Shown: in pieces, positions 5,146 through 50,362 of the stretch
Numbering within the stretch: position 1 is the stretch's first letter
Layout of the letters: each line of letters opens with the position of its first letter
Origin: Hirudinaria manillensis
Lineage: Eukaryota; Annelida; Clitellata; Hirudinida; Hirudinidae
Length of the DNA stretch: 64,000 nucleotides
Assembly (NCBI GenBank): GCA_034509925.1
Contig: CM067536.1
Location: 5,403,501-5,467,500, forward strand
Direction of reading: 5' to 3'
The notes under the pieces: model-generated
What the model was told of the DNA's origin: nothing
What the model saw: only the letters and a program-made list of their open reading frames with translations
Databases searched by the model: none
Made by a program: the position numbers and the translations under genes

Positions 5146-6742
5146 TTATTTCTTCTGATCTTTGTAAGCATAGTGAAGATCTGAGACATCATCTTGAGAT
5201 ATCTTTTCCCAACCAGTCTCCTTCATGTGGTACACTAAAAAAATAAATTACCAATCAATCCCCGTCTTTGCAAGCATTCACCAAAGCTCCGCTGCCGAGC
5301 AAGATTTCCACATTTTAACCAAAATCAAATGGAACAGAAACTCACGTGAAACAATTCCACCACTGTAAGCATCTCTGTAGGTGGCATGGTAGATTGCCCT
5401 CCTTCCTAGATCATAGGCTTCCTCGTCACTGAGGTCATAACGGTAGCCACTATCCAAGACTCCATAGGCATAGGTTGATCCTGAACCAACGCTGAACATG
5501 ACGTTGGTGAGTCTGGTTCCATCACTATCGACATAGTACAATCCAGGACCCTAGAAACAGAAACATGTAAATATCAGAGAGGGTTAAATTAAGCATTTGT
5601 TTACATTTTTACAAGTTTGCATTTGTAAACAATGTAATAATAAGAGCAATGTTTTACATATATAGGCTTAAAAAATTGTACTCACCCTCTTGTCCCATCC
5701 AACAATCATTGTTCCCATAGACAAATCCATGCCCTTGTATGAATAAAGAATGTTTGCAAGAAGCTTTGAGGCAGCAGCCACAGAAATTCTTTCCTTGTTC
5801 CTCAGCTCATAAATCCTTAAAATACATTAGAAGCCAAATTAAATTTGCATTGAAAATGAAGCTTTTCTCATCTGCTGAGGTTACCTGCACTTTTCGGCGA
5901 GAACTCTTTGCCAGAAGGAGCAGTCGGCAGCACATCCGGCCATCGTTCCCAGGAGGTATCGATTGATCTCGATGACTTTCTTGACATTCTGGGAAGCAAT
6001 CCAAGCTCCTGCTGTAGCTCTGGAATCCACAGCAACAATGACTCCATTCTGGTATTTGAATGCCAAAGTAGTGGTTCCATGATTAAACTGGATTTTCATG
6101 TCCGATTGGTTGTTCTCTTCGCATGCTTTGTTAAAATGAGCAGCTGGCTGTAGGAACAAACATGGAATTTATAAGTTAAATTGAAGTGATTGTTAGCAAT
6201 ATTGAAGATTTTAATATTCTATCAAATGAGATATTTCTGGCAAACACATATATTATGCCAGATTGGTCTGCAATGATTATATATGAAAGTATATTATTAT
6301 ATTGTAGCCTAATTTAATCTGTTTCACACCACTAAGCAAAATTGTCATTAAAAAAATGATTATAAAACATCAGCCAAAAAGTTTTTTAATTCAATGATAC
6401 TCTACTTACAATGATACTTACTGTTACTTTCCCATTAACTATTATCTTACAATTTTAAGATCAAGTATAGTAAGACCACTAATGATTTTGGAAAACCCTC
6501 AATTTAGCAAATGTTTGTAATACATTTGGAATACTCGCTAATTTAGTTTTTCAACTTGATAATAGCTCTTATTATTGGTGCATTGAATAGAAATAACTCA
6601 CATTGAAGGCTGTAGGCACTTCAAAAGTGCACGATCGCATTAACGCTTCCTCCAAATTTACAAATTCATCATCAACATTCCTGGATCTCTTAGCTAGCCA
6701 GCCACTATTTTTATGTACTCCACAAACAGATTCCAGAGCCAT
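5146..6742 (-). CDS. PSMB5: 20S proteasome subunit beta type-5 (PSMB5/PSMB8-like)
   Basis: Exons: 6602-6742, 5885-6147, 5686-5815, 5346-5550, 5146-5234 (828 nt, 275 aa, close to the animal beta5 length). This is the chymotrypsin-like catalytic beta subunit, made as a propeptide precursor and cleaved at Gly|Thr. The mature N-terminus is in HGTTTLAFK. Catalytic Thr1, Asp17 (in AVDSRATAG) and Lys33 (NVKKVIEI) are all present, as are [15 protein letters not shown] and [14 protein letters not shown]. The C-terminal exon (YHMKETGW) completes the fold. MAGCAADC and DSGYR resemble PSMB8 and other segments resemble PSMB5, as expected for an invertebrate ancestor of both. The propeptide is about 70 residues. 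The start ATG is in MALESVCG. The closest paralogue in its own genome would settle beta5 versus beta5i. Confidence 0.95.
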
Positions 6743-12618: not shown

Positions 12619-15600
12619 TTAGACAAAGTTTACTTCATGTAAATGTGCTCCGTGTGTTTTACCAAGTTCTCCAGCATGATCTGAAAAATGCTTCCTCAAT
12701 CTTTGCACAACAGCTTGAAAATCTGCCAAACCGTCGGAGAGTATTTTCAAATCGTCTTCTCCCTCTACCAAATAAGTGTAAGAAGAGATCTCACTGGCAA
12801 TATCTCTGTACAACTGAGGAGCTTGATTCAGTTGTTGGAGAGATACCCTGAGAGAATGAATGTTTCAAACTATTCAAGCAGTAGTTAACAGGTTGAAGAA
12901 ACTAATGCCACCTATTTGATACTAGAGCACTTGTCTGGTCAATGTGATTACAGCCAATAATGTCTTGCAAGCAGGCATCATCAATGGTGAAGCAGGGATG
13001 GTTTCTATATTCCTCAGAAAATAATTTCCAGTCAAACCCACCTATTTTATGAAAGGCGTGAAATTTTTAAATTGAGGAAACCACAACAGTGAGAATTGGT
13101 TGGAAATGTATGGATGGCCAAATGAGTATCGAGTCTCATGCTTTGCAAAACCAAAGTGCCTCCTTCAGATGGCACTATATAAATGGTCAGCATGCAAATT
13201 AGTCAGGATGGTTCCATTCCTGTGTAGGAATGATTGTAATGTGTCATGTTCAAAATCCACAAGTGTCCTCGTGCTATGGATAGAACCTTAAATACTGCTC
13301 AAATGGCAACTTATAAACGACCCAGGTTAGACTCAAGCAAATAAACCCACCATAAAAATAATCCATTACTGCAAGTATATGCTTGCAAGGTAGACCATCA
13401 GATCTGAATCCAAGACATTCACAGAATGGTTGCCTGCTATCCACCGAGTAACCGAGTACAACGAATTTTGTGTCATCCAATCTCGTCACATTGTCTGGCT
13501 CGATATATACAGAATTTAGCCTCTCCTCATTAAAATGTCTGAAGAACTTCAAAGGCCTTCCGACCATGGAGTAAGATACTTTGCTCATCACGGGGTCATT
13601 GTTAACACGGTTCTCCCTAACGTACCTATCCGGCAAAACATTGAACGAGAACCATTGCAAAAGGCATCAAATCAAAGATATCATGAAAATTGACCAATTG
13701 AGCACCATTCCTGCAAACAAACTGTTGTTAAACTTTGCATCAGAACCCAGCCTGCACTTGTTGTATGACTGTATAATTGGTGCAAGTGCTCCAAATGCTC
13801 TTACTTAAAAAGTGTTTATCATAATGTATGCCCTAATTAAATGATGTTTTATAATTTTAATTACACAAATCCACATATCATCAATGGGTAAGTAAATTAA
13901 AGAAAATAATCCACAACAACTGATTATTTGAACCTTCTCCATTGGTCAGGTAGGAAGTTTTCTACAATGGCAGTGAAGACTGTGGACAGAGTTGTGGAGG
14001 GCAGCTTACTAAGATACTGTCTCTTTAGTTGTCTATGGATTGATTCACTCCCACTGCTAGAAGTTAGAACTCTATCCCTTGGAAAAAATGCAATAACCCA
14101 AGACTAAAAAAAAAAAACAAAATACCATTGACAACAGCATGCAAAGATTTTTAAAAGTCCAAGCCTACAGGAAGTAGATCTTCTTTTAGCCATTGCTTCT
14201 CCACATAATTCTGGAACCTCTTGTTGCTATTGTACACAAGACTAGATCTCAATGCAGTGACATATCTGTTAAAATCCTTCTCTGATGAGGCATTTGCTAT
14301 TTTCTGGTCTCAAGTTAATATGTTAACAATTATAAATTCATCAAAATACAGCAAATCGTAATTGACCAACATTTAATCGTAGCATTATTTCCTGCCTGTG
14401 TCTTGAAACACCATTCATATTATGGGAGACCCATTTGACCCAGGACTGCAGCCGATGATATTTGCACAAATACAGAAAGCAATCTAGAATAAATTCACAC
14501 TTTTAAGAACAATGTAATGCAAGATGATGTATGTATTCATGATGCTGCAAAATATTATTAAACAAACCAACTTGGAAATAACTGTTCCAATGCGTCCCTC
14601 TGCATTCTGCATCCATCAATCATGAATGAGCAGGGGTTCCAATTACTGTTAAATTGTTTAATGAAGCTCAGTGCCTCATAAATAGAGGCACTGGTTTTAT
14701 TGGCAACAACAAACAATGCAGCAACACACTTGTTGGCATTTGTGCCAACACATAAAAGGAATATGGAAAGTGAATATTTTGAGACTGTATGATTGGCATC
14801 TAAGAAACATGTGTGATTTCCATATCTGAAAAAAAAATACTTGTATTAAATAAAAACAAAAACTCAGGAAAGATATAATAAGAAAAATGAGATAGAAATT
14901 AAATTATATGATCCAAAACCATAACAAAAAAGAAACAGGATTTATAATTAACCTTTGCAACAGATGCCTCTGGCTTGCATTCTGAAATATCAACATAAAT
15001 CCACCCTCTTGCCCAGGCCTTCGAAAGAAACTTATATCTTCCTCTTTCACACATTCAGAGAGTCTCTGTTCCATAACATCAATGTCCATGAAACCCTCAA
15101 ACATTCTTTTGACATCACAATATACATGATCTGATATTAAGACAAGTTGAAATTATAAATAATAAACGATTAATCAACTAGAGAGATGCTAACTCCTTAT
15201 AGCTTTTCTAGGTGGGTAGAATCTCCTGTCAGTGTATTTCGGAAGAGTTCCATTAGTAAACAACGTCTTCACATATGCCCGAAGACGTTGATGGACCTGC
15301 TCCGTCATTGTGATGTTGTCCTTCACGAGGTCCGTTATTTTTTGTCTCACTCGAACATCTAGCTGAGTTTTCATTCTAATAGTCTACAAATCAGTTTTAG
15401 ATTATTTTTTCCAAGATTATGTTTTGTCACACTTGTACTCACTTTATTGATAGTGTGCTCCATGTGATCACTTGGTTGTGGCAGATGGATTACGAAGACT
15501 CTTGTAGATGGAGCAGGAGACACCCCAGACAAAGCATCACGTACAGAGACCGAAGCCAAATGCATCTTATGCTTGGTGATTGGTTCAATCTGTCGCAACA

Positions 15601-21473: not shown

Positions 21474-24400
21474 TCAGTCCATCTTGATATTCATATAAAT
21501 GTACTTGATGAACTTGAGGGATGAGAAAAAGGACACTGTTCCCAGCATAAGGAAGAATATGTAGCAGACCAGGAGGGTCGATCCAAAGAACTCTGCAGTT
21601 TGCAGCAGACCATACATGCTCGAGCGACGAAGATAGTAAAACACTGCATACAGGAACACAAAGACACCTGTCGACCTGAAAGAATATTGGATAATTCGTT
21701 TCATCGATTACATAACAAATTTCCAATAACAAAACTTTTTATATGCATTAAAATAATGACAGATTATGGTTAGACTGAAATCTTGAAAATCATATTTATT
21801 ACTTTTAGGACCTTTTCATCAATTTTTTAAGGATTGACATAACTAAACAACAAATATCAGAAATTAGATGTTTCATAATAATTTCTAGAGAGTAAAGCCT
21901 TAACTTTGTAATAGAAATTAAGAACTCACAATATCAATTCATTTACAAACCTCAAAATTTTTTTTTGAGTTTTTGAATCTATTCAGAAGAAAATCAAATT
22001 CACAACCATATTAAAAAAAAATAAAAAAAAATAACCAAAGCAAATGTTTATATACGAAGCATTGAAACTAATTCAGCCAAACTCAAAGGGCCAGCCTTAA
22101 GGAAGCACCTTTGCTTTTTCTAATTTTAAAATTCTCACATTTTCTTGCTTATGGTGAATTCTTTTTTGGCCCAATGGCTTGGCCAAAAAGAGCCACATTC
22201 CCAATTGTGACTCTTTATGCCCGTGATGTATGAAATTGTAATGTATCCAGGTAAATCTTGGCCTCCATGATCAATAACAGATTTACCACATTTTTAAAAA
22301 TACCTGCTCTTTCAAGATCTTGCCTTCTTGTCGCTAAGCTTTTCTCTTTAATTTTGTTGTTTGGGTAAATGCCTTAGAATCTATAAAAGATGTCCACAAA
22401 AATTTGCAGACTTTTGACTATCCTGTCTCTCCTCATATGAAGTTCCAGATTTTTTTCACAAAAAAAAATTTGAAAATCATACTTTGCTAATTTCCCCTCC
22501 CCCCTACAACTGTATTTTAAGGATGACCCATGCCATGACTCTTGACTATGACATTAGCAAGACTTTGACCATATTTCTCCACTGAAATTTATGGTCCTCA
22601 TATTTCCACAGGGACTTCACAGGGAAAAAATGCATGTCTCTTTTTTTACTAGTTCTAAGAATTAGTCAGAAAGAACTGAAAAATAAATGTACACATAAAT
22701 TGAAAAGTGAAAAGTTTTCTAACCCAGCACTGAAGATTGATCTCCACCACCATCTGTAATCCTCCAGTGACAGCTGGAAATAGGTGAGGGCAGCAGATAT
22801 GCAGGCGGTAACAACCAGAAGGATGATGTAGACAATGAAGAGAATTCCATATAATGTATATTGCTCTCTACCCCATAAGGTGGCAAATATATAATATAGC
22901 TCAACTGATATGGCACTGAAAAAAAAGTAATAAATGGGTTGGTATGGCAACAACATTCAAGTTCCATTTTAATAATGATTATTAGCTAAACCCATTAGTG
23001 CCAGTTGTATCCTATTGCCAGGTGCTGCCATAAAGTCGGTTAAAAAAACTATTCATGCTATTTGGTGATATCGTTTTTATGTTTATTATTTCATTTAATT
23101 TTCTAACTAAAATTATACAATATTTCCTGGAAAACTTGGGCATTAATGGGTTAAGCTGAAATGAAAATATACTAAAACCCATTAAGCAATAAAGACCTTA
23201 AAATAAAGTTTATAAAGTAAGATTTTTTCAAAAAATGTTTATATCACATTCACAGTTTTAAGTTCAATTTAACCTGAATGGTAAGAAACCCCCGATTATG
23301 CAATGAGCCAACGAGCTTTTGTATAAAGGAATGGATGGAATTTCACGAGCAATGTTCTTTGTCCTGCAGGGAGCATCGAAACTTCCTGCATAATTCTTTC
23401 CTAAGATGCCGCTGATGATCGTAAGAGGATATCCCACTAGAAAGGAATTATCCGGAATAAATTATGAACTAAATTATTTCTAAACATTCTTAACCACTCA
23501 AGATTTTGCATAGAATTGCACCCACATATCAACCATAGTGCTCCCAAGAGAATGATGGTACTCCAGGGAAGGGCTTGTGTTGAGCCATAAATCCAGGCGA
23601 GTGTGTTAAGGAAGCTCCACACAATTAGGAAAGGTCCTGATTGAAATGACCAAAACAGTGTTTACCATAAAAGATGAAAAATTACAAATCATCATGTTTC
23701 TTTAAGTGAAGTGCAATAATATAAAACATATATGAGAATAGCACAATCAACCAGTAATACCTGCAAAAAGGAATGATGTGAGATTTATGTTCCACACCCA
23801 ATTCTCTCCACCCATCTTTTTATACATGGTTGATGCAACATAACCAGACACACCTGAACAAGACAAATACGTACACATTTATGCAGGCAAAAAAAGTTGT
23901 TGTGATTTAATTTGCCACTTAAGTTGTATTTCAATAATAACTTCCAATCAATGGAAATCCAAATTTAGTCTCAAATAAAAATCATTTAAAGCTAAATGAC
24001 AATCTCAAACATTGAGCAAAAACTCACAGGAAGTGAGAGCATACAGTATGATGGAGGCAGAGTTTATTGAACCATGCCTGTGAACATTGAAGGCTCCTCC
24101 GACAGCCAACAACAGTATCGAAGTTGCAATGGTCAAGAATTGAGAACCAACACCTGTTTTAAAAGTTAGCCCTTTGCAAAAAAATATGCCCAAACTTTCT
24201 TGCTGAAGACGAATAAAGAATGGACACGAGCAGTTTATCACCAGGCACTTTAATTTATTTACGTGTATTTAACAATGGTTGGAATTAGTTAACCAGCCAG
24301 TCTTTTCCCTTCATCATAAAAATGTAATTAGCATGCTTTAAACATTCATTAAGCATTTTCATTGAACAAATAAGCAGTTTAAATGCAGAACTCCATGACT

Positions 24401-26565
24401 TCAGCAGTGACATAACACAAATGTAAAATATAAATATACATAAAATATTTTACAGAAATCAATAACAAATTGGAAAAGACATTCAGACCCAGGATGGCAC
24501 AGAAGAGGCTCTTATACTGAGGGAACCTGAAGACATCGGCTTGAATGATTTTCCAGCCATTGTCTTCATCTTCCAATCCATCATCATCCTGGAGATTGTA
24601 ACGTGCAAAATCCTTTCTCAGAATCCTGGCCTAGTCAAAATGTAAATTCAACGATTCTATTTTTGTTAATACTGAATATTCAGAAACATGGTTTGTAATG
24701 TAACACATCTAAGATTGTGTTTTCCCAAAAATAAGATTCTCTTACATTAAATCCTGCTCCAAAATAGGCAATATGGTTTAATTTTGGGGTTTTTCCACAT
24801 TAAAATCTAGAGCTTAAATCTATTTTTCACAACAAATGATGTAAACATAATTTCCCAATAAATATCAAAGATAATTATACATTTAATTATGAAAACGTCA
24901 TCGTTATATCTTAAATTTTCAACATAAAAATTTTCAAACTAACCAATATTATGATAACAAAAACTGACAGCAAGAATACCAAGATCATGGAATTGACAAT
25001 GGACAGCCAATGAACCTGTCGTTTGTAAAAATTGATAACATTACTAACAATATTCAACATTCGTAACTAAAGAATCCTGACTTAAAGTTAAAGTCTAAAT
25101 AAATTATTTTAAAAAATTAAATTGAAATTAAATTATTTAAAAAAAAATTATCAAAAAGGAAAACATAAACCTCCAAGTTGTTAGTGAAGAACGAGGACTC
25201 CTTGGCTTTCTTCAATCTCTCTTCTCGTTTCATTCTTAAAACAACGTAAACATGAGAACGTATTCTCCAAATACAATACAAACAACGATGTTTCAGAAAC
25301 TAACAAGGAAGACGTCCATTTGACACCATAGGTGAAGTTTATCACGAGAGGATATTGAGTCACCTCGTCCAAACTTATCTTTGCATTCAGAGATTCACCG
25401 ACAGAAATATTGGCAAAGACGATCTGAAATTGTTAAATGATTTAAACATTTTTTTTAAATTAATAAATACTTTAATACTTTAATAAACAAAACAAATCAC
25501 TCCCACACAACGCGACACTCAGCCAGCTATGCATCCATACAGATTCAACAAAGCATCAGTTAATCACTCAATTTAAGTTAATTAATAATTTAAGTTATTA
25601 AATTAAGTCATCAAATTAACATCAACTAACTTCGTCGTCATTGTACTCGAAGTGGAATTGATGATGAGTGAAAAATGAAATAAAATGTTTGTGGGGCACA
25701 TAAGGACCTTCCTGTAGATCTCCAATGAAACCTCTTACTGGTATCTCATCTGAAAGCATGTCAATATTTAAATTCTTTTAATTCAATTAAAATTTTTACT
25801 TAACAAATCTATTAAATGGAATATTAGAACAGCTTAAATAATAAAATAAAAAAATGCAGTAGAAGCAAGAACTGTCATGTCAAGTCAGGCACGAGTCAAG
25901 AGGACAATTAAAACACTTCTCAACATTAATTGGAGATAAGAGCATTTACTAATATTATTGCTTATCAACATGCAACATAGTCCCCACTCACCAATAACAA
26001 ATTCAAAGTAGTATAAATCTTCAATGGCCTCCTTCAACTTATCTACATCTTCTTTCATTAATGACAGCATACACAAAGACTTCATTTTTTCATTCACTAT
26101 GATGCAATATTTATTTCTTAGAAACAGGCTTTAATAAATAATTTAAAGTCATCACCTCCGAAACGTATCTTGTATTCTGAAAAGGCCATTCTGTCTCCAT
26201 CGAGTAATTCTCCAAGAGTTAGGGACCTACGCTTTATCTGGACAGTGCATATTACTTTGGATTATGAAAAATAATCTACTTTAATTATTACATTTAAAAA
26301 GCGTTTACTTCTTTCGGCCGGCAAACTGGTAGTTCGTAATAATGATATGTTTCGTGAGGATTGTGATATGGTCCGACTTTATTAACGTATACATCAACCT
26401 GATTTTACAAGAACAATCACAAATTGCAGCTATTTTGACAATTTCGTAACTTTGAGGCTTGGGACAAAAAAACGACATTACCTCATCATTTTCCCTGTAT
26501 TTATTTGCTGATATAGTCCATATACAACCAACCAAGCAGACAGCAAAACACCTAAGTATTGCCAT
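21474..26565 (-). CDS. TM9SF1: Transmembrane 9 superfamily member 1 (nonaspanin), 15 exons, 594 aa
   Basis: Exons: 26482-26565, 26309-26398, 26156-26237, 25992-26096, 25631-25749, 25284-25423, 25171-25234, 24944-25015, 24489-24630, 24028-24153, 23761-23853, 23526-23636, 23274-23436, 22724-22915, 21474-21675 (1785 nt). Signal peptide [20 protein letters not shown], then the lumenal nonaspanin domain ([14 protein letters not shown], then [19 protein letters not shown]). Nine membrane spans begin at [20 protein letters not shown]. Subfamily signatures: [60 protein letters not shown], and a C-terminus ending YIYMNIKMD, whose last residues match the KxD/E Golgi-retention motif. These match TM9SF1 rather than TM9SF2-4. 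It acts in endosome/Golgi membrane protein trafficking. The exon 6/7 boundary is the least certain. It is divergent from archease. Confidence 0.95.
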
Positions 26566-29041: not shown

Positions 29042-32000
29042 TTAGGCGAGGTACTGAAAGAATTTGACAAGGCCGTGTTGCTCGGCAACAATCAATCTCC
29101 CAAACTCATCGACTATCACGGCCTGTGGCCACTCGATGCCATCTGACTTTCCCACGATGGTTTTGATCAGCCTTCCCTCTTCAGATAGCAGTACCACTCT
29201 GTTGTTCCAAGTATCACTAATGATAATGTGGTTGTACCTGAAATGAATGTTTACTTGTTGTATAAATTCAATTGAAATCAATAATATCAGGGATTCTTGA
29301 ATACAAGATAATATTTAGTAGTGATGATAAGCAGGGTCTTTTGTTACGATGATACGTTGGTATTGGGCTTATTAATGGAGTGACATGCTTAAAGGAAGAT
29401 AATGATAAAGATTAAGTGAGAAAGAAGATTTGAAGTGATACCGACCTGTCTGAACACACTCCATAAGGATGGTCGAGTTGTCCATTTCCAGATCCTCTCC
29501 CTCCATATTGTTTCAAGAAGCGGCCTTTGCTATCGAAGATTTTCACGACATGTTGCTTCCAGTCGCTGACGACAATGTTGCCGTTGGGGCAGCACGTGAT
29601 GTATCCTGGAGCTTCGCACATGATCGGAAAGTTCCTAACTTTCCCGCCATCTTCATCCAGGACTATCACCTCACCAGACATCCACTCTGTTACCAGTATT
29701 TCTCCAGAATCGTTTTGTGCCAATCCGACTGGTTGTTTCAGGCGATCGTTGAAAATCCCGACGAATCTGCCATCCAGTCCTAACAACTTCAAATCTTTCT
29801 CATCCTTGACTAGGATGAGTTCAGAATTCTTTAGAAAGAGACATCTGTTGGGAGACTTGAGATCGGCAGCCTCGTCCGAGAGCACCCTCAGTATTCCTTC
29901 GTGATTGAAAACCTTTATTCTCTTGTTTTCTCTGTCTGTGACAATGATGTTGTTGTCGTTATCTAGACTGATGTCACAGAGTGCACATTCCTTTTCGTCG
30001 TGAGTCCATTTAGCAGAGAAAGCTCGTGCTGCCACAGGCATGCTTCGGGACATAGCCTCTCCTTCAAAAGTCAGCTCGCCAAAGAGCTTGGCGATCAATC
30101 TGTCATCTCCGTCTTCGGGCTCGAGAGCAGCCGAAGGATTGAGCCTTGGTTCTTTCCAGGCAGGTGGCATGGTATCCACGGGCGTTTGGAAATCCTCCAA
30201 CCGGGATTTCACCTCCTTGCTCATGGAAACAAGTTCCTCTGGCCGGTCAAAACTTAGAAGAGCCTCGGAGAATGATCTAGCAGAAACGGCAGCCTGAAGT
30301 CTGTTTTTGCATGCCTCGGTTTCGGTGACAATGTCTTTACGATGCTCTTTTGACATCTCTTCGACTTGAGCCAAAATATTTTCTGCATAATGTTGAATTC
30401 TTCTCACCACGGTCCCCACAACCTTAAAATCAAATTAGTCTTATTGTTTGTTTTAATTGAGTAAAAATTAATAATTTGATATGTATAAATGTAGAATAAT
30501 GGCAAACACCTCTTGAGTTCTGTCATTGATTGCCTTGTGTAGCTTTTTCCTCAGTTGGATGGTGGCTTTTTCTTCAGCTTCCAAGTTTGCAATTTTTTCA
30601 GCTGTGGAGGTTATGAACTTCTTAGCTGAAGGCAATAATGTCCTGCACAATTTAGAAGATTTTTGAATTTCTTTGTTTTTAACTTAGAAAATTATAGTTC
30701 ATTATTTTTTTTTGTGACGAAAGATCTAAGGTTTTTGTCCCAATTTCTCTGATTAATAGATGCTTTTGGATAAATGCATGTAGGAAATGAATTTATGAAA
30801 TCTTATTAGAGTTCACACAGTCAATGCATTTATGAAAAAGATTGAGTTAATTTAATAACCAAGAAAATGTGACATTGCAGAAGTTTTAAATCATGAAATG
30901 TAGTGGAAAGTTTAACTTGCTTGATGTATTTGGCTTCTTTCTTGGCCTGGTTTGTCAACTCAACTGCTTCATGCTGGTCATGAGCAGGAGTCGTTTTGCA
31001 AACAGTGCAAATTGGGGCCTGGCACAGAGGATCACAGCAGTACAATTTCAGTGGTTCACTGTGCTTGCTACAAATCAGAGGCTCAAATTTTTCCTTGATC
31101 AGTTCATCATATTGGCCATTCTCTAGTTCCTCAGGACTCACTAGGTGATGGTCTTTGGTCATTTTAACCTGGATGAGAAGTGGTGCAATAGCAATGGTGA
31201 TATTATTTATTCTTGAATATTATTTGTAATTTCATTTAATATGAAGCTGCTATTTGAAAACAGGTTGTATAAAGTGATGCTAAAAACTAATTAATTAAAA
31301 AACTGTTAAACCATAAATTTTAAGGTTATATTAGAAATGTTTAGGTTAATGTTTATTTTCTTATGTTAATGTTATTCATGGATAGTTTTTGCCAAATTAA
31401 GGCATGTCAAATAAAGACAATTACTTTGCAGAATCTTTTGTTGGACATTTACCCATCAACTAATCAGATGTAATTAGTAAAATGTTCTAGTAACAAAATA
31501 ATTAAACAAACATGAAATATAGCTAGGAGGGTTATATTCCTGCAAGACATTTCAATAAATTGCTCTTTTGCCATGCCAACAGTCCAGCTTATAACACTCA
31601 TGTGGAACCTAAGTAATGTCGTGATTTATAAATCTCCAACACCCTTACAAGTAATGGCATCCTCTAGATCTAACATAAATATACAAGGAAATCAAAGCCT
31701 TATTTAAGATACGAATCAATGACAACAACCTTGGCATGCATGGAGCAGCATTGGTTGCAGAGCCAATCGGTGCATTCAATGCACTTCTTTCGAGCAGGTC
31801 TCCCACTTTCGCATCCTTCGCATTCCTGGTCGTCGTCCAAGGTCTTGCTGTGATAAAACTCCTGCAGTGTGACCAGGAAAATGTTGCTCTTCATGGCTCT
31901 CACACCTCGCGCTGGCACGACGCACTGGGTTTTGCAGATGGGACATAGGAATGCTTCCCCTGGCCCGATACCGTTTTCGGTGAGATTGGAATCCAAACAT

Positions 32001-40470: not shown

Positions 40471-40617
40471 GCCGGGAAAGCGCGAACGCATCTCCCTAGA
40501 CGCAAAATTAATGCGCCCGAGTTACACCATTTGATGTAATCGCAGGAATCAACCACGTGTGGTCTCCTCCTGGGTGATTCGCCTTCTTGATCGCGTCTCA
40601 CCTGCGCAAGGTTAGTT
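40471..40617 (-). ncRNA. RNU1: U1 snRNA copy 16, 5'-end variant (ACUAACCUUG)
   Basis: Two changes in the splice-site pairing segment: U6 to A and G11 to U. The rest of the RNA is as in the reference copy. Predicted perfect partner AAG|GUUAGU. Confidence 0.9.
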
Positions 40618-40786
40618 AAATTTACGAGGCAAGGTAAACTAGGTTTATGCATCCACCCGAAAAGACTATATGGTGTTGATTTCAAGTAATAAAATTTTAA
40701 AAGATCCTGCATCCCTTGAAACCAAATAAAAATTTATAGCACAATTATATCGAAACTCAAATTGAAATGTTATTTTTATTTAATGA

Positions 40787-40933
40787 GCCGGGAAAGCGCG
40801 AACGCATCTCCCTAGACGCAAAATTAATGCGCCCGAGTTACACCATTTGATGTAATCGCAGGAATCAACCACGTGTGGTCTCCTCCTGGGTGATTCGCCT
40901 TCTTGATCGCGTCTCACCTGCGCAAGGTAAGTT
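40787..40933 (-). ncRNA. RNU1: U1 snRNA copy 17, single 5'-end variant (ACUUACCUUG)
   Basis: Only G11 to U; an intermediate between the canonical and double-variant forms. Confidence 0.9.
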
Positions 40934-41102
40934 AAATTTACGAGGCGAGGTAAACTAGGTTTATGCATCCACCCGAAAAGAGTATATGGTGCTGATTTCA
41001 AGTAATAAAATTTTAAAAGATCCTGCATCCCTTGAAACCAATTAAAAATTTATAGCACAATTATATCGAAACTCAAATTGAAATGTTATTTTTATTTAAT
41101 GA

Positions 41103-41249
41103 GCCGGGAAAGCGCGAACGCATCTCCCTAGACGCAAAATTAATGCGCCCGAGTTACACCATTTGATGTAATCGCAGGAATCAACCACGTGTGGTCTCCT
41201 CCTGGGTGATTCGCCTTCTTGATCGCGTCTCACCTGCGCCAGGTAAGTT
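41103..41249 (-). ncRNA. RNU1: U1 snRNA copy 18
   Basis: Canonical 5' end between two variant copies. Confidence 0.9.
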
Positions 41250-41418
41250 AAATTTACGAGGCAAGGTAAACTAGGTTTATGCATCCACCCGAAAAGAGTA
41301 TATGGTGCTGATTTCAAGTAATAAAATTTTAAAAGATCCTGCATCCCTTGAAACCAATTAAAAATTTATAGCAGAATTATATCGAAACTCAAATTGAAAT
41401 GTTATTTTTATTTAATGA

Positions 41419-41565
41419 GCCGGGAAAGCGCGAACGCATCTCCCTAGACGCAAAATTAATGCGCCCGAGTTACACCATTTGATGTAATCGCAGGAATCAA
41501 CCACGTGTGGTCTCCTCCTGGGTGATTCGCCTTCTTGATCGCGTCTCACCTGCGCAAGGTTAGTT
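41419..41565 (-). ncRNA. RNU1: U1 snRNA copy 19, 5'-end variant (ACUAACCUUG)
   Basis: Same double change as copy 16. Confidence 0.9.
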
Positions 41566-41734
41566 AAATTTACGAGGCAAGGTAAACTAGGTTTATGCAT
41601 CCACCCGAAAAGACTATATGGTGTTGATTTCAAGTAATAAAATTTTAAAAGATCCTGCATCCCTTGAAACCAAATAAAAATTTATAGCACAATTATATCG
41701 AAACTCAAATTGAAATGTTATTTTTATTTAATGA

Positions 41735-41881
41735 GCCGGGAAAGCGCGAACGCATCTCCCTAGACGCAAAATTAATGCGCCCGAGTTACACCATTTGATG
41801 TAATCGCAGGAATCAACCACGTGTGGTCTCCTCCTGGGTGATTCGCCTTCTTGATCGCGTCTCACCTGCGCAAGGTTAGTT
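41735..41881 (-). ncRNA. RNU1: U1 snRNA copy 20, 5'-end variant (ACUAACCUUG)
   Basis: Double change; upstream flank also differs (GATATCAAG, shared with copies 37 and 38). Confidence 0.9.
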
Positions 41882-42050
41882 AAATTTACGAGGCAAGGTA
41901 AACTAGGTTTATGCATCCACCCGAAAAGAGTAAATGGTGTTGATATCAAGTAATAAAATTTTAAAAGATCCTGCATCCCTTGAAACCAAATAAAAATGTA
42001 TAGCACAATTATATCGAAACTCAAATTGAAATGTTATTTTTATTTAATGA

Positions 42051-42197
42051 GCCGGGAAAGCGCGAACGCATCTCCCTAGACGCAAAATTAATGCGCCCGA
42101 GTTACACCATTTGATGTAATCGCAGGAATCAACCACGTGTGGTCTCCTCCTGGGTGATTCGCCTTCTTGATCGCGTCTCACCTGCGCCAGGTAAGTT
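42051..42197 (-). ncRNA. RNU1: U1 snRNA copy 21
   Basis: Canonical 5' end. Start of a block repeating 33.1-38.6 kb at an offset of 8945 bp. Confidence 0.9.
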
Positions 42198-42366
42198 AAA
42201 TTTACGAGGCAAGGTAAACTAGGTTTATGCATCCACCCGAAAAGACTATATGGTGTTGATTTCTAGTAATAAAATTTTAAAAGATCCTGCATACTTTGAA
42301 ACCAATTAAAAATTTATAGGAGAATTATATCGAAACTCAAATTGAAATGTTATTTTTATTTAATGA

Positions 42367-42513
42367 GCCGGGAAAGCGCGAACGCATCTCCCTAGACGCA
42401 AAATTAATGCGCCCGAGTTACACCATTTGATGTAATCGCAGGAATCAACCGCGTGTGGTCTCCTCCTGGGTGATTCGCCTTCTTGATCGCGTCTCACCTG
42501 CGCCAGGTAAGTT
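42367..42513 (-). ncRNA. RNU1: U1 snRNA copy 22 (SL2 variant)
   Basis: Carries the same SL2 change as copy 2. Confidence 0.9.
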
Positions 42514-42682
42514 AAATTTACGAGGCAAGGTAAACTAGGTTTATGCATCCACCCGAAAAGAGTATATGGTGTTGATTTCAAGTAATAAAATTTTAAAAGA
42601 TCCTGCATCCCTTGAAACCAATTAAAAATTTATAGCAGAATTATATCGAAACTCAAATTGAAATGTTATTTCTATTTAATGA

Positions 42683-42829
42683 GCCGGGAAAGCGCGAACG
42701 CATCTCCCTAGACGCAAAATTAATGCGCCCGAGTTACACCATTTGATGTAATCGCAGGAATCAACCACGTGTGGTCTCCTCCTGGGTGATTCGCCTTCTT
42801 GATCGCGTCTCACCTGCGCCAGGTAAGTT
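42683..42829 (-). ncRNA. RNU1: U1 snRNA copy 23
   Basis: Canonical 5' end. Confidence 0.9.
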
Positions 42830-42999
42830 AAATTTACGAGGCAAGGTAAACTAGGTTTATGCATCCACCCGAAAAGAGTAAATGGTGTTAATTTCTAGTA
42901 ATAAAATTTTAAAAGATCCTGCATATTTTGAAACGAATTAAAATATTTATAGCAGAATTTTTTGGAAACGCAAATTGAAATGTTATTTTTATTTAATGA

Positions 43000-43146
43000 G
43001 CCGGGAAAGCGCGAACGCATCTCCCTAGACGCAAAATTAATGCGCCCGAGTTACACCATTTGATGTAATCGCAGGAATCAACCACGTGTGGTCTCCTCCT
43101 GGGTGATTCGCCTTCTTGATCGCGTCTCACCTGCGCCAGGTAAGTT
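43000..43146 (-). ncRNA. RNU1: U1 snRNA copy 24
   Basis: Canonical 5' end; adjoins a U3. Confidence 0.9.
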
Positions 43147-43422
43147 AAATTTACGAGGCAAGGTAAACTAGGTTTATGCATCCACCCGAAAAGAGTATAT
43201 GGTGTTGATTTCTAGTAATAAAATTTTAAAAGATCCTGCATACTTTGAAACGAATTAAAAATTTATAGCAGAATTATATCGAAACGCAAATTGAAATGTT
43301 ATTTTTATTTAATGAATGACGTGTGATGATGAATCCTAAAATGAAGAATTATACTTACTCTAGAACTGACACGAAGCAGAGAGAGGCAGCAGAAGAAGTT
43401 ATCTTTCATTTAAAAAAAATAA

Positions 43423-43654
43423 ACCAGTCGGAGAGCGATTCTCACCTCCCCACCCGTCTGAGACGGGAAGGAGCGTTCATCGATGGGAAGAGCAGTGGAC
43501 GTCTTCGTTTCCAAAGACGGCCAAACCACGCCAACCATTCCTCGCGCTCAGTGAGAGACGCCGGGACTCGTCATCCTGGTTTGGGTCCCAGAATCAGTTT
43601 TGACTGACGTCCTGGCGAAACCATCTATAAAGATGATCCCTGGAAGTATGACTT
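43423..43654 (-). ncRNA. SNORD3: U3 snoRNA copy 3
   Basis: Full length, CUCCGA box D form as in copy 1. Confidence 0.87.
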
Positions 43655-44586
43655 CGAATATACGTAGTTACTCGCGGTTTTATTAATCGGGATAAAGGAC
43701 ACTGACTGAGGTGGATCAATGAACTATCGAGTCAAAACGTTATGGAAAGAAAATCGATTGGTAAACTTACTGGTTCTTGATGTGTGAGTAAAAAGAGGCT
43801 AGCAAAATGATGCATTTTGGAAATGGAAGAGGCAATGCAGAGTGAATTTGTCATGCTTCTGACCGTTGCTGGACATTTTCCAACGCTAGTTGTTTGGTTT
43901 AATTTAGTTTTTATGAACAAGTGGACTATCGTTTTAAAGGAAGTTAAATATTCAAAATAACGAAATGACACAACAGACAGATAAATTTATTTCGATCGAA
44001 AATGCTGAAAAACGAATTGTTGTGATTATCAGCAGGTAGAATGCTCTGGAGAAAATTAATATGGTTTAAGGTATTTTATTAAACATACAGCGACATTTCT
44101 AAATTCTATATAAAATAGTTTCGTTAATTTCAAACAAATAAAAAAATTCATTCATATATTTCCACTTAAATATGGTAACTGAAATAACAAAATGGACTTA
44201 TCGAACAACTCTTTTAAATTCATCAGCAATATTTACAAAAAACTAAAATATTGACGTCATTGAAATAGAACAGTGATAATGAATTCAATTTTACGAAGAC
44301 AATCTAGAACTGAAACGACCCAGCGAGAGGCAGTAGAAGTAATCTTTCATTTGTAAGAAATGCAATTTGGAATTGAAAGAAGAAATGCAGAGTGATTTTG
44401 TCATCCTTGAGATGCGGCCTTTCACGAGTTTATTTGACTGAGTGAATGACGTGTCATGATGATTCCTAAAATGAAGAATTATACTTACACTAGAACTGAC
44501 ACGAAGCAGCAAAAGAAGTTATCTTTCATTTGAAAAAAATAAAGTTTTAAATTTTTTGGAAACGCAAATTGAAATGTTATTTTTAT
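43655..44586. repeat. Array spacer 3 (TRIM-derived)
   Basis: Counterpart of spacer 1 at +8945 bp, with the same ATGTCC start-context change. Confidence 0.85.
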
Positions 44587-44593
44587 TTAATGA

Positions 44594-44740
44594 GCCGGGA
44601 AAGCGCGAACGCATCTCCCTAGACGCAAAATTAATGCGCCCGAGTTACACCATTTGATGTAATCGCAGGAATCAACCACGTGTGGTCTCCTCCTGGGTGA
44701 TTCGCCTTCTTGATCGCGTCTCACCTGCGCCAGGTAAGTT
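44594..44740 (-). ncRNA. RNU1: U1 snRNA copy 25
   Basis: Canonical 5' end. Upstream TATA-like element altered (TTCACCTAG in place of AAACCTAG), shared with copy 31. Confidence 0.9.
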
Positions 44741-44909
44741 AAATTTACGAGGCAAGGTAAACTAGGTGAATGCATCCACCCGAAAAGACTATATGGTGTT
44801 GATTTCAAGTAATAAAATTTTAAAAGATCCTGCATCCCTTGAAACCAATTAAAAATTTATAGCACAATTATATCGAAACTCAAATTGAAATGTTATTTTT
44901 ATTTAATGA

Positions 44910-45056
44910 GCCGGGAAAGCGCGAACGCATCTCCCTAGACGCAAAATTAATGCGCCCGAGTTACACCATTTGATGTAATCGCAGGAATCAACCACGTGTG
45001 GTCTCCTCCTGGGTGATTCGCCTTCTTGATCGCGTCTCACCTGCGCCAGGTAAGTT
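44910..45056 (-). ncRNA. RNU1: U1 snRNA copy 26
   Basis: Canonical 5' end. Confidence 0.9.
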
Positions 45057-45225
45057 AAATTTACGAGGCGAGGTAAACTAGGTTTATGCATCCACCCGAA
45101 AAGAGTATATGGTGCTGATTTCAAGTAATAAAATTTTAAAAGATCCTGCATCCCTTGAAACCAATTAAAAATTTATAGCACAATTATATCGAAACTCAAA
45201 TTGAAATGTTATTTTTATTTAATGA

Positions 45226-45372
45226 GCCGGGAAAGCGCGAACGCATCTCCCTAGACGCAAAATTAATGCGCCCGAGTTACACCATTTGATGTAATCGCAG
45301 GAATCAACCACGTGTGGTCTCCTCCTGGGTGATTCGCCTTCTTGATCGCGTCTCACCTGCGCCAGGTAAGTT
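45226..45372 (-). ncRNA. RNU1: U1 snRNA copy 27
   Basis: Canonical 5' end. Confidence 0.9.
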
Positions 45373-45541
45373 AAATTTACGAGGCAAGGTAAACTAGGTT
45401 TATGCATCCACCCGAAAAGACTATATGGTGTTGATTTCTAGTAATAAAATTTTAAAAGATCCTGCATACTTTGAAACCAATTAAAAATTTATAGGAGAAT
45501 TATATCGAAACTCAAATTGAAATGTTATTTTTATTTAATGA

Positions 45542-45688
45542 GCCGGGAAAGCGCGAACGCATCTCCCTAGACGCAAAATTAATGCGCCCGAGTTACACCA
45601 TTTGATGTAATCGCAGGAATCAACCACGTGTGGTCTCCTCCTGGGTGATTCGCCTTCTTGATCGCGTCTCACCTGCGCCAGGTAAGTT
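45542..45688 (-). ncRNA. RNU1: U1 snRNA copy 28
   Basis: Canonical 5' end. Confidence 0.9.
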
Positions 45689-45857
45689 AAATTTACGAGG
45701 CAAGGTAAACTAGGTTTATGCATCCACCCGAAAAGAGTATATGGTGTTGATTTCAAGTAATAAAATTTTAAAAGATCCTGCATCCCTTGAAACCAATTAA
45801 AAATTTATAGCAGAATTATATCGAAACTCAAATTGAAATGTTATTTTTATTTAATGA

Positions 45858-46004
45858 GCCGGGAAAGCGCGAACGCATCTCCCTAGACGCAAAATTAATG
45901 CGCCCGAGTTACACCATTTGATGTAATCGCAGGAATCAACCACGTGTGGTCTCCTCCTGGGTGATTCGCCTTCTTGATCGCGTCTCACCTGCGCCAGGTA
46001 AGTT
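45858..46004 (-). ncRNA. RNU1: U1 snRNA copy 29
   Basis: Canonical 5' end; adjoins a U3. Confidence 0.9.
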
Positions 46005-46281
46005 AAATTTACGAGGCAAGGTAAACTAGGTTTATGCATCCACCCGAAAAGAGTATATGGTGTTGATTTCAAGTAATAAAATTTTAAAAGATCCTGCATA
46101 TTTTGAAACGAATTAAAAATTTATAGCAGAATTATATCGAAACGCAAATTGAAATGTTATTTTTATTTAATGAATGACGTGTGATGATGAATCCTAAAAT
46201 GAAGAATTATACTTACTCTAGAACTGACACGAAGCAGAGAGAGGCAGCAGAAGAAGTTATCTTTCATTTAAAAAAAAATAA

Positions 46282-46513
46282 ACCAGTCGGATAGCGATTC
46301 TCACCTCCCCACCCGTCTGAGACGGGAAGGAGCGTTCATCGATGGGAAGAGCAGTGGACGTCTTCGTTTCCAAAGACGGCCAAACCACGCCAACCATTCC
46401 TCGCGCTCAGTGAGAGACGCCGGGACTCGTCATCCTGGTTTGGGTCCCAGAATCAGTTTTGACTGACGTCCTGGCGAAACCATCTATAAAGATGATCCCT
46501 GGAAGTATGACTT
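46282..46513 (-). ncRNA. SNORD3: U3 snoRNA copy 4
   Basis: Full length, AUCCGA box D form. Confidence 0.87.
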
Positions 46514-47512
46514 CGAAGATACGTAGTTACTCGCGGTTTTATTAATCGGGATAAAGGACACTGACTGAGGTGGATCAATGAACTATCGAGTCAAAACGTT
46601 ATGGAAAGAAAATCGATTGGTAAACTTACTGGTTCTTGATGTGTGAGTAAAAAGAGGCTAGTAAAATGATGCATTTTGGAAATGGAAGAGGCAATGCAGA
46701 GTGAATTTGTCATGCTTCTGACCGTTGCTGGCCATTTTCCAACGCTAGTTGTTTGGTTTAATTAAGTTTTTATGAAGAAGTGGACTATCGTTTTAAAGGA
46801 AGTTAAATATTCAAAATAACGAAATGACACAACAGACAGATAAATTTATTTCGATCGAAAATGCTGAAAAACGAATTGTTGTGATTATCAGCAGGTAGAA
46901 TGCTCTGGAGAAAATTAATATGGTTTAAGGTATTTTATTAAACATACAGCGACATTTCTAAATTCTATATAAAATAGTTTCGTTAATTTCAAACAAATAA
47001 AAAAATTCATTCATATATTTCCACTTAAATATGGTAACTGAAATAACAAAATGGACTTATCGAACAACTCTTTTAAATTCATCAGCAATATTTACAAAAA
47101 ACTAAAATATTGACGTCATTGAAATAGAACAGTGATAATGAATTCAATTTTACGAAGACAATCTAGAACTGAAACGACCCAGCGAGAGGCAGTAGAAGTA
47201 ATCTTTCATTTGAAAGAAATGCAATTTGGAATTGAAAGAAGAAATGCAGAGTGATTTTGTCATCCTTGAGATGCGGCCTTTCACGAGTTTATTTGACTGA
47301 GTGAATGACGTGTCATGATGATTCCTAAAATGAAGAATTAAACTTACACTAGAACTGACACGAAGCAGCAAAAGAAGTTATCTTTCATTTGAAAAAAATA
47401 AAGTTTTAAATTTTTTGGAAACGCAAATTGAAATGTTATTTTTATCCCTTGAAACCAATTAAAAATTTATAGCAGAATTATATCGAAACTCAAATTGAAA
47501 TGTTATTTTTAT
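46514..47512. repeat. Array spacer 4 (TRIM-derived)
   Basis: Same structure as spacer 2. Confidence 0.85.
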
Positions 47513-47519
47513 TTAATGA

Positions 47520-47666
47520 GCCGGGAAAGCGCGAACGCATCTCCCTAGACGCAAAATTAATGCGCCCGAGTTACACCATTTGATGTAATCGCAGGAATCA
47601 ACCACGTGTGGTCTCCTCCTGGGTGATTCGCCTTCTTGATCGCGTCTCACCTGCGCCAGGTAAGTT
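47520..47666 (-). ncRNA. RNU1: U1 snRNA copy 30
   Basis: Canonical 5' end; first of a run of 11 U1 units. Confidence 0.9.
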
Positions 47667-47835
47667 AAATTTACGAGGCGAGGTAAACTAGGTTTATGCA
47701 TCCACCCGAAAAGAGTATATGGTGCTGATTTCAAGTAATAAAATTTTAAAAGATCCTGCATCCCTGGAAACCAAATAAAAATTTATAGCACAATTATATC
47801 GAAACTCAAATTGAAATGTTATTTTTATTTAATGA

Positions 47836-47982
47836 GCCGGGAAAGCGCGAACGCATCTCCCTAGACGCAAAATTAATGCGCCCGAGTTACACCATTTGAT
47901 GTAATCGCAGGAATCAACCACGTGTGGTCTCCTCCTGGGTGATTCGCCTTCTTGATCGCGTCTCACCTGCGCCAGGTAAGTT
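47836..47982 (-). ncRNA. RNU1: U1 snRNA copy 31
   Basis: Canonical 5' end; altered TATA-like element as in copy 25. Confidence 0.9.
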
Positions 47983-48151
47983 AAATTTACGAGGCAAGGT
48001 AAACTAGGTGAATGCATCCACCCGAAAAGACTATATGGTGTTGATTTCAAGTAATAAAATTTTAAAAGATCCTGCATCCCTTGAAACCAATTAAAAATTT
48101 ATAGCACAATTATATCGAAACTCAAATTGAAATGTTATTTTTATTTAATGA

Positions 48152-48298
48152 GCCGGGAAAGCGCGAACGCATCTCCCTAGACGCAAAATTAATGCGCCCG
48201 AGTTACACCATTTGATGTAATCGCAGGAATCAACCACGTGTGGTCTCCTCCTGGGTGATTCGCCTTCTTGATCGCGTCTCACCTGCGCCAGGTAAGTT
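48152..48298 (-). ncRNA. RNU1: U1 snRNA copy 32
   Basis: Canonical 5' end. Confidence 0.9.
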
Positions 48299-48467
48299 AA
48301 ATTTACGAGGCGAGGTAAACTAGGTTTATGCATCCACCCGAAAAGAGTATATGGTGCTGATTTCAAGTAATAAAATTTTAAAAGATCCTGCATCCCTGGA
48401 AACCAAATAAAAATTTATAGCACAATTATATCGAAACTCAAATTGAAATGTTATTTTTATTTAATGA

Positions 48468-48614
48468 GCCGGGAAAGCGCGAACGCATCTCCCTGGACGC
48501 AAAATTAATGCGCCCGAGTTACACCATTTGATGTAATCGCAGGAATCAACCACGTGTGGTCTCCTCCTGGGTGATTCGCCTTCTTGATCGCGTCTCACCT
48601 GCGCCAGGTAAGTT
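48468..48614 (-). ncRNA. RNU1: U1 snRNA copy 33 (linker variant)
   Basis: Same GUCCAGGG linker change as copy 11. Confidence 0.9.
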
Positions 48615-48783
48615 AAATTTACGAGGCAAGGTAAACTAGGTTTATGCATCCACCCGAAAAGAGTATATGGTGCTGATTTCAAGTAATAAAATTTTAAAAG
48701 ATCCTGCATCCCTTGAAACCAATTAAAAATTTATAGCAGAATTATATCGAAACTCAAATTGAAATGTTATTTTTATTTAATGA

Positions 48784-48930
48784 GCCGGGAAAGCGCGAAC
48801 GCATCTCCCTAGACGCAAAATTAATGCGCCCGAGTTACACCATTTGATGTAATCGCAGGAATCAACCACGTGTGGTCTCCTCCTGGGTGATTCGCCTTCT
48901 TGATCGCGTCTCACCTGCGCCAGGTAAGTT
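48784..48930 (-). ncRNA. RNU1: U1 snRNA copy 34
   Basis: Canonical 5' end; the following unit is 315 bp. Confidence 0.9.
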
Positions 48931-49098
48931 AAATTTACGAGGCAAGGTAAACTAGGTTTATGCATCCACCCGAAAAGACTATATGGTGTTGATTTCAAGT
49001 AATAAAATTTTAAAAGATCCTGCATCCCTTGAAACCAATAAAAATTTATAGCACAATTATATCGAAACTCAAATTGAAATGTTATTTTTATTTAATGA

Positions 49099-49245
49099 GC
49101 CGGGAAAGCGCGAACGCATCTCCCTAGACGCAAAATTAATGCGCCCGAGTTACACCATTTGATGTAATCGCAGGAATCAACCACGTGTGGTCTCCTCCTG
49201 GGTGATTCGCCTTCTTGATCGCGTCTCACCTGCGCCAGGTAAGTT
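49099..49245 (-). ncRNA. RNU1: U1 snRNA copy 35
   Basis: Canonical 5' end. Confidence 0.9.
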
Positions 49246-49414
49246 AAATTTACGAGGCAAGGTAAACTAGGTTTATGCATCCACCCGAAAAGAGTATATG
49301 GTGTTGATTTCAAGTAATAAAATTTTAAAAGATCCTGCATCCCTTGAAACCAATTAAAAATTTATAGCACAATTATATCGAAACTCAAATTGAAATGTTA
49401 TTTTTATTTAATGA

Positions 49415-49561
49415 GCCGGGAAAGCGCGAACGCATCTCCCTAGACGCAAAATTAATGCGCCCGAGTTACACCATTTGATGTAATCGCAGGAATCAACCAC
49501 GTGTGGTCTCCTCCTGGGTGATTCGCCTTCTTGATCGCGTCTCACCTGCGCAAGGTTAGTT
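49415..49561 (-). ncRNA. RNU1: U1 snRNA copy 36, 5'-end variant (ACUAACCUUG)
   Basis: Double change as in copy 16. Confidence 0.9.
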
Positions 49562-49730
49562 AAATTTACGAGGCAAGGTAAACTAGGTTTATGCATCCAC
49601 CCGAAAAGAGTATATGGTGCTGATTTCAAGTAATAAAATTTTAAAAGATCCTGCATCCCTTGAAACCAATTAAAAATTTATAGCAGAATTATATCGAAAC
49701 TCAAATTGAAATGTTATTTTTATTTAATGA

Positions 49731-49877
49731 GCCGGGAAAGCGCGAACGCATCTCCCTAGACGCAAAATTAATGCGCCCGAGTTACACCATTTGATGTAAT
49801 CGCAGGAATCAACCACGTGTGGTCTCCTCCTGGGTGATTCGCCTTCTTGATCGCGTCTCACCTGCGCAAGGTTAGTT
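49731..49877 (-). ncRNA. RNU1: U1 snRNA copy 37, 5'-end variant (ACUAACCUUG)
   Basis: Double change; flank as in copy 20. Confidence 0.9.
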
Positions 49878-50046
49878 AAATTTACGAGGCAAGGTAAACT
49901 AGGTTTATGCATCCACCCGAAAAGAGTAAATGGTGTTGATATCAAGTAATAAAATTTTAAAAGATCCTGCATCCCTTGAAACCAAATAAAAATTTATAGC
50001 ACAATTATATCGAAACTCAAATTGAAATGTTATTTTTATTTAATGA

Positions 50047-50193
50047 GCCGGGAAAGCGCGAACGCATCTCCCTAGACGCAAAATTAATGCGCCCGAGTTA
50101 CACCATTTGATGTAATCGCAGGAATCAACCACGTGTGGTCTCCTCCTGGGTGATTCGCCTTCTTGATCGCGTCTCACCTGCGCAAGGTTAGTT
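50047..50193 (-). ncRNA. RNU1: U1 snRNA copy 38, 5'-end variant (ACUAACCUUG)
   Basis: Double change; flank as in copy 20. Confidence 0.9.
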
Positions 50194-50362
50194 AAATTTA
50201 CGAGGCAAGGTAAACTAGGTTTATGCATCCACCCGAAAAGAGTAAATGGTGTTGATATCAAGTAATAAAATTTTAAAAGATCCTGCATCCCTTGAAACCA
50301 AATAAAAATGTATAGCACAATTATATCGAAACTCAAATTGAAATGTTATTTTTATTTAATGA

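Follow-up and report, generated by a model that had tools for sequence, protein, structure and literature searches.

Variant donor-reading ends recur among the U1 RNA genes of the leech Hirudinaria manillensis

Within a 64,000-nucleotide stretch of the Hirudinaria manillensis genome (the window; C11:5403501-5467500, in a genome of 148 Mb and 23 contigs), Rfam RF00003 identified 52 genes resembling the U1 small nuclear RNA (snRNA), all on the minus strand, six of which carry two base changes in the 5' end that reads splice donors. We consider it somewhat probable that the six represent alleles within an array of truncated U1 genes that evolves in concert, and that this array is part of a genome-wide set of U1 paralogs repeatedly re-coded at the donor-reading end. 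The re-coding would lie chiefly at position 6, where U6A would face a U at donor position +3, and also at positions 9 (C9U, facing -1A) and 11 (G11U, facing -3A).

All 52 window genes exceeded the RF00003 gathering score of 69.5 bits, and the six double variants scored 83.2 bits. Direct reading of the 5' ends gave ACUUACCUGG in 45 genes, ACUAACCUUG (U6A with G11U) in six and ACUUACCUUG (G11U alone) in one; the same ends are also given as ACTTACCTGG (45), ACTAACCTTG (6) and ACTTACCTTG (1). The canonical donor-reading end ACUUACCUG is present in the 45 and absent from the six double variants. An initial annotation of the window had reported the six double variants and the copy with G11U only, and RF00003 and direct reading confirmed all seven, with starts one base higher than it gave. 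By U1 numbering, it had also correctly placed the two changes opposite donor +3 (U6) and -3 (G11). The array and its variant genes are as follows, in window coordinates, each gene being identified by RF00003 and direct reading.

33107-63970, minus strand: U1-like tandem array of 52 genes, 316-bp unit, extending past the window (RF00003 at 83-91 bits, tandem repeats and genome pattern matches)
40472-40618, minus strand: U1-like gene, 5' end ACUAACCUUG, with U6A at 40613, G11U at 40608 and A3 at 40616
40788-40934, minus strand: U1-like gene, 5' end ACUUACCUUG, G11U only
41420-41566, minus strand: U1-like gene, 5' end ACUAACCUUG
41736-41882, minus strand: U1-like gene, 5' end ACUAACCUUG
49416-49562, minus strand: U1-like gene, 5' end ACUAACCUUG
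49732-49878, minus strand: U1-like gene, 5' end ACUAACCUUG
50048-50194, minus strand: U1-like gene, 5' end ACUAACCUUG

A 24-base pattern of the 5' end had 134 matches in the genome, at least 100 of them on C11 among the matches listed. Interspersed in the array are 12 U3 small nucleolar RNA genes (window 32798-62817, minus strand), the first scoring 74 bits and the remaining eleven 98-99 bits.

We read 94 units of the array, the last near C11:5511195, and found 85 canonical, 6 double-variant and 3 G11U-only units. The double variant occurs on four upstream haplotypes and G11U alone on three. Variable columns number 37 of 168 upstream and 11 of about 146 in the RNA, and within the RNA, positions 6 and 11 are the two columns that vary most. 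Five RNA columns have a minor count of at least 2; two of these lie inside the 9-nt pairing segment, for which a hand estimate gives a chance of about 0.03, a post hoc and weak figure. The initial annotation had argued that two joint changes are unlike random decay. The changes also occur singly, G11U in the 3 units above and on C9, and U6A elsewhere, which points to a stepwise origin. Stepwise change, followed by copying through unequal crossing-over or gene conversion, would be the simplest account of the array variants. The six copies are not separate cases, being near-duplicates within one array. The recurrence of U6A outside the array is stronger evidence than the clustering of variable columns within it.

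Alignment of the array RNA to RF00003 showed stem-loop I with GAUCAAGAAG (the U1-70K loop), an Sm-like site and the 3' stem-loop, and the absence of 15 of 17 model positions in the loop region of stem-loop II, where the U1A-binding loop CAUUGCAC lies. U1A binds stem-loop II of U1. Because this loop is missing here while the other U1 clusters have it, except at C8:614899, the array U1 reads as a truncated, divergent U1 and not a standard one. The RNA body had been described as unchanged, which holds against neighbouring copies, since the body and a short 3' flank are identical in 46 of the 52 window genes, but not against a standard U1, given scores of 83-91 bits versus 113-157 bits elsewhere. 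Outside the array, U1 genes on C5, C6, C8 and C9 scored 127-157 bits (42 scored of 2171 candidates), and further C8 genes comprise two at 113 bits and a decayed one at 72 bits.

A U1-body profile lacking the 5' end was run over 18 loci surrounding the remaining U1 clusters, giving 46 rows, of which 26 full-length genes form the dispersed set; 8 full-length copies of an array on C8 and 12 partial copies were left out. Because these loci were taken from the RF00003 search and its model covers the 5' end, genes with heavily altered 5' ends may be under-represented. The 26 dispersed genes comprise 15 canonical genes, 7 with U6A (one also with C9U), 3 with C9U alone and 1 with G11U. The U6A genes lie on three contigs other than C11 and have different bodies, six of the seven scoring 113-151 bits; all apart from the decayed C8:614899 contain the U1A loop letters, so loss of the U1A loop does not go with re-coding. 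C9U genes occur on C5, C8 and C9, and G11U alone is found on C9 as well. None of the 26 differs at position 3, 4, 5, 7, 8 or 10. When the whole genome was matched to a pattern that left positions 6, 9, 10 and 11 free and fixed the rest, 90 places were found, 7 with U6A; the pattern missed the C9U gene C8:612462. In the part of the C8 array covered (C8:560064-570540, loci L052 and L060), canonical U1 genes stand in tandem about 607 bp apart, with decayed second U1-like copies in between; three C8-array copies, at C8:575570, 581076 and 585349, carry C9A (ACTTACATGG).

On a tree of 30 U1 bodies, built with the 5' end excluded, the U6A label requires six changes, at least four of them imposed by well supported branches. 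Most U6A genes group with their cluster-mates, and the C11 array joins two U6A-carrying C8 genes (support 91/86, not starred). Either U6A has arisen repeatedly, or conversion has affected the bodies but spared the 5' ends. A search with a conserved 21-base segment of U6 gave three exact matches and one 3-mismatch match at control level, with no box variant among them, which places the observed variation in U1.

Of the 29 U1 genes read outside C11, 26 have an [AC]CACC element 58-59 nt upstream of A3. In the array units it lies mostly 60 nt upstream, in some as GCACC, and for the first double-variant gene it is located as follows.

40661-40676, minus strand: element resembling a proximal sequence element (ACACC...), starting 60 nt upstream of A3, extent approximate, from sequence reading

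We infer that the element is the snRNA proximal sequence element. A changed donor-reading base, a U1 body and an snRNA-like promoter occur together in U6A, C9U and G11U genes, the element being diverged in three U6A genes on C8.

To compare these ends with donors, 28 introns were solved by reading frames and homology, from genes for TRIM-NHL (4), PSMB5 (3), GCSH (3) and a TM9SF1-like protein (7) and from four FG-GAP-like paralogs (11). Only GT or GC donors were looked for, and the sample is effectively smaller than 28, since the paralogs have a common history and the choice of genes followed the available sequence. Donor +3 is G in 11 introns, A in 7, T in 7 and C in 3; elsewhere, +4A occurs in 16, +5G in 18, +6T in 11, -1G in 21, +2T in 27 and +2C in 1, so that 27 donors are GT and one is GC. 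Donors with +3T make up about 3% in animals. The 7 of 28 observed here correspond to p = 1.5e-5 against 3%, 3.6e-4 against 5% and 0.018 against 10%. All seven +3T donors pair better with a U6A U1, by construction, and the -1A found in 4 of the 28 donors would be readable by C9U. GTRAG donors number 7 of 28 by hand count, versus 53.6% in human according to the consulted excerpt of PMC11732430.

The spliced PSMB5 and GCSH products align without gaps to human-type proteins. The TM9SF1-like product aligns to Pfam EMP70 with 322 residues to 322 positions, covering its seven junctions; no relative of this protein was found among solved structures. The TRIM-NHL gene of the window encodes RING, B-box and NHL domains, and its product matches homologous exons, the first two junctions being gap-free against TRIM28. 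The four FG-GAP-like paralogs are mutually consistent, with some gaps near one junction. The solved introns in the window include the following, those of the TM9SF1-like gene resting on homology and the EMP70 span.

5235-5884, minus strand: PSMB5 introns 5816-5884, 5551-5685 and 5235-5345, with +3 A, G and G (homology)
21676-22723, minus strand: TM9SF1-like intron, donor TGG|GTTAGA (+3T)
22916-23273, minus strand: TM9SF1-like intron, donor CAG|GTTAAA (+3T)
24631-24943, minus strand: TM9SF1-like intron, donor TTG|GTTAGT (+3T)
31169-31729, minus strand: TRIM-NHL intron, donor AAG|GTTGTT (+3T, -3A) (homology, gap-free over the junction against TRIM28)

The TRIM-NHL gene also has a GC-AG intron with donor CAA|GCAAGT (window 30643-30920, minus strand). 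At about 54-70 kb along C1:2000001-2080000, tandem FG-GAP-like genes lie on both strands, with common intron positions and fast-changing donors. Four introns (ATG|GTTTGG, GAG|GTCGGG, CCG|GTGAGA and ATG|GTACGT) were dropped for phase support only or doubtful length; with them included (n = 32), +3 is T in 8, A in 8, G in 12 and C in 4. An intron near 19150 was dropped as ambiguous. Ab initio gene prediction, trained on long open reading frames, yielded spurious introns in repetitive sequence, and hand-solved introns checked by homology and phase were used instead. PRPF8 failed as a source of introns, its PROCN part lying within a single open frame of 526 amino acids. Pfam detected a SWIM zinc finger in an open frame (window 13274-13666, minus strand) that is perhaps part of a transposase gene.

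Counts of donor-like 9-mers over both strands of the genome were 890 for CAGGTAAGT, 560 for CAGGTTAGT, 1523 for CAGGTGAGT, 786 for CAGGTCAGT, 892 for AAGGTAAGT and 1053 for AAGGTTAGT. After hand removal of U1 genes, about 688 CAGGTAAGT, 554 CAGGTTAGT, 888 AAGGTAAGT and 1047 AAGGTTAGT remained. The reversed words (1705 for CAGGTAAGT, 1578 for CAGGTTAGT, 657 for CAGGTGAGT, 569 for CAGGTCAGT, 3385 for AAGGTAAGT and 2923 for AAGGTTAGT) are poor controls, because five of the six point the opposite way or are similar. Expectations from Markov models of three orders, derived from 113 kb, gave observed/expected ratios of 1.9-2.8 for CAGGTGAGT, 1.1-2.1 for CAGGTAAGT, 0.9-1.6 for CAGGTTAGT, 1.0-1.4 for CAGGTCAGT, 0.9-2.1 for AAGGTAAGT and 1.0-2.4 for AAGGTTAGT; the order-2 and order-3 expectations disagree, which makes the counts too noisy. 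A short tandem repeat at C1:1483634-1483902 contains CAGGTAAGT every 20 bases and inflates its genome count.

The initial annotation had named AAG|GTTAGT as the exact target of the double variant and had proposed a genome-wide donor logo split by +3T and -3A. In the 28 introns +3T is common, but -3A is present in just one of the seven +3T donors and in 3 of the 21 others. Among the 9-mers, the odds ratio for -3A with +3T, calculated by hand with U1 genes removed, was 1.46 versus 0.93 for reversed words, leaning toward the proposed linkage, although the words are not assignable to donors. With AAGGTTAGT not clearly enriched genome-wide either, AAG|GUUAGU is unlikely to be a dedicated target of the array double variant.

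It is plausible that there are U1 isoforms capable of pairing with +3U donors, because U6A recurs genome-wide and +3T donors are common in the sample. The variant genes would be transcribed, their RNAs would enter small nuclear ribonucleoproteins, and a U6A U1 would help to define +3U donors through one restored base pair. The proposal of specialised isoforms, made originally for the six array genes, thus appears plausible for U6A across the genome, where recurrence in dispersed genes, promoter-like elements and frequent +3T donors agree with it. Several observations weigh against it. U6A is not retained everywhere: the U6A gene C8:614899 is decayed (72 bits), its Sm site and U1A loop both gone, and four decayed partner copies in one C8-array locus (L052) have a U6A-like 5' end, AAACTAACCC. 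The promoter core of the three diverged U6A genes on C8 reads TACCG or GCACCG, and one of the three has a decayed body. Clustering of the U6A label on the body tree is at chance level (108 of 500 shuffles as low), and U1 bodies may have been converted. Just one of the seven +3T donors, AAG|GTTGTT, pairs better with the array double variant than with U6A alone. The +3T class is not clearly visible in the genome 9-mer counts, whose noise allows them neither to show nor to exclude it. In addition, U1 pairing energy is described as the least predictive measure of donor efficiency in the excerpt consulted of a review (PMC11732430).

The main rival is drift in a redundant U1 family, which we regard as quite possible. 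In a family of over 200 U1 genes, individual copies would drift; U6A, C9U and G11U would be tolerated, unequal crossing-over and gene conversion would spread them, the C11 array would be near-satellite, and the relaxed +3 position would have another cause. The 134 array copies and 90 further pattern matches fit such redundancy, as do the occurrence of variant ends on several upstream haplotypes, the decayed U6A gene and C8-array partner copies, the loss of the U1A loop from the array RNA and the additional change C9A. However, drift would not readily explain why changes in the 26 dispersed genes are confined to positions 6, 9 and 11, with none facing +1, +2, +4 or +5, why six of the seven U6A genes have a good U1 body, or why the array RNA columns are less variable than the upstream ones. 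It is very improbable that the array RNAs act as U1-like RNAs outside donor choice, for example in guarding transcripts from early polyadenylation, and that such a role sets their 5' ends. The missing U1A loop would suit this role, and, in the parts of the sources consulted, human vU1.8 carries a small U1A-site deletion (PMC13172311) and deletions of fly U1 genes alter 3'-end formation (PMC10645366), but outside the array all U6A genes apart from the decayed one retain the loop letters. More ambitious than re-coding of U1 paralogs as such, and rather unlikely, is a U1 isoform set run like tRNA isoacceptors, in which canonical U1, a +3U-reading U6A, a -1A-reading C9U and a -3A-reading G11U would be kept in several clusters and would let donors relax at those positions.

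Variant U1 RNAs of this kind are already known, and the comparisons below follow the abstracts and excerpts of the papers cited. In Schmidtea mediterranea, U1C1 and U1C2 carry a C-to-U change facing -1, with measured stem-cell enrichment (PMC6312358). They are likewise animal U1 paralogs with an altered donor-reading base, and their change is the C9U found here on C5, C8 and C9; unlike in the planarian, where only -1 is affected, position 6 is changed most here and position 11 too. In human, the donor-reading domain of vU1.3 and vU1.4 has a C-to-T change, vU1.8 has its U1A-site deletion, and knockouts alter splicing (PMC13172311, PMC5159530). The leech paralogs resemble both types, but whereas vU1.3 and vU1.4 are said to permit AT donors, the changes here face +3, -1 and -3, leave GU pairing intact and recur across clusters. 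Drosophila and mouse, too, have several U1 genes with sequence variants, which differ in developmental expression (PMC10645366, PMC4291461); the Drosophila variants G134U and G123C map to the Sm site or its vicinity (PMC10645366), in contrast to the donor-reading changes here. Larvacean tunicates are another animal lineage with relaxed donors, as seen here in 28 introns, but their U1 end is described as conserved, and changes in U2AF and N6-methyladenosine are invoked (PMC13326754), whereas in the leech U1 itself varies and all sampled donors but one are GT. No report of a position-6 change in U1 was found in the literature searched, as judged from listings, abstracts and excerpts. Relative to that literature, the novelty lies in position 6, in the recurrence and in the relaxed +3 donors.

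These genes bear on the general question of whether U1 variants with a changed donor-reading end steer donor choice. Recurrent re-coding in several U1 clusters, together with matching donors in about a quarter of a small sample, would allow U1-donor co-evolution to be tested in this leech by ordinary RNA sequencing. If the variants are silent, they would clearly exemplify redundancy among U1 genes in a genome with relaxed donors.

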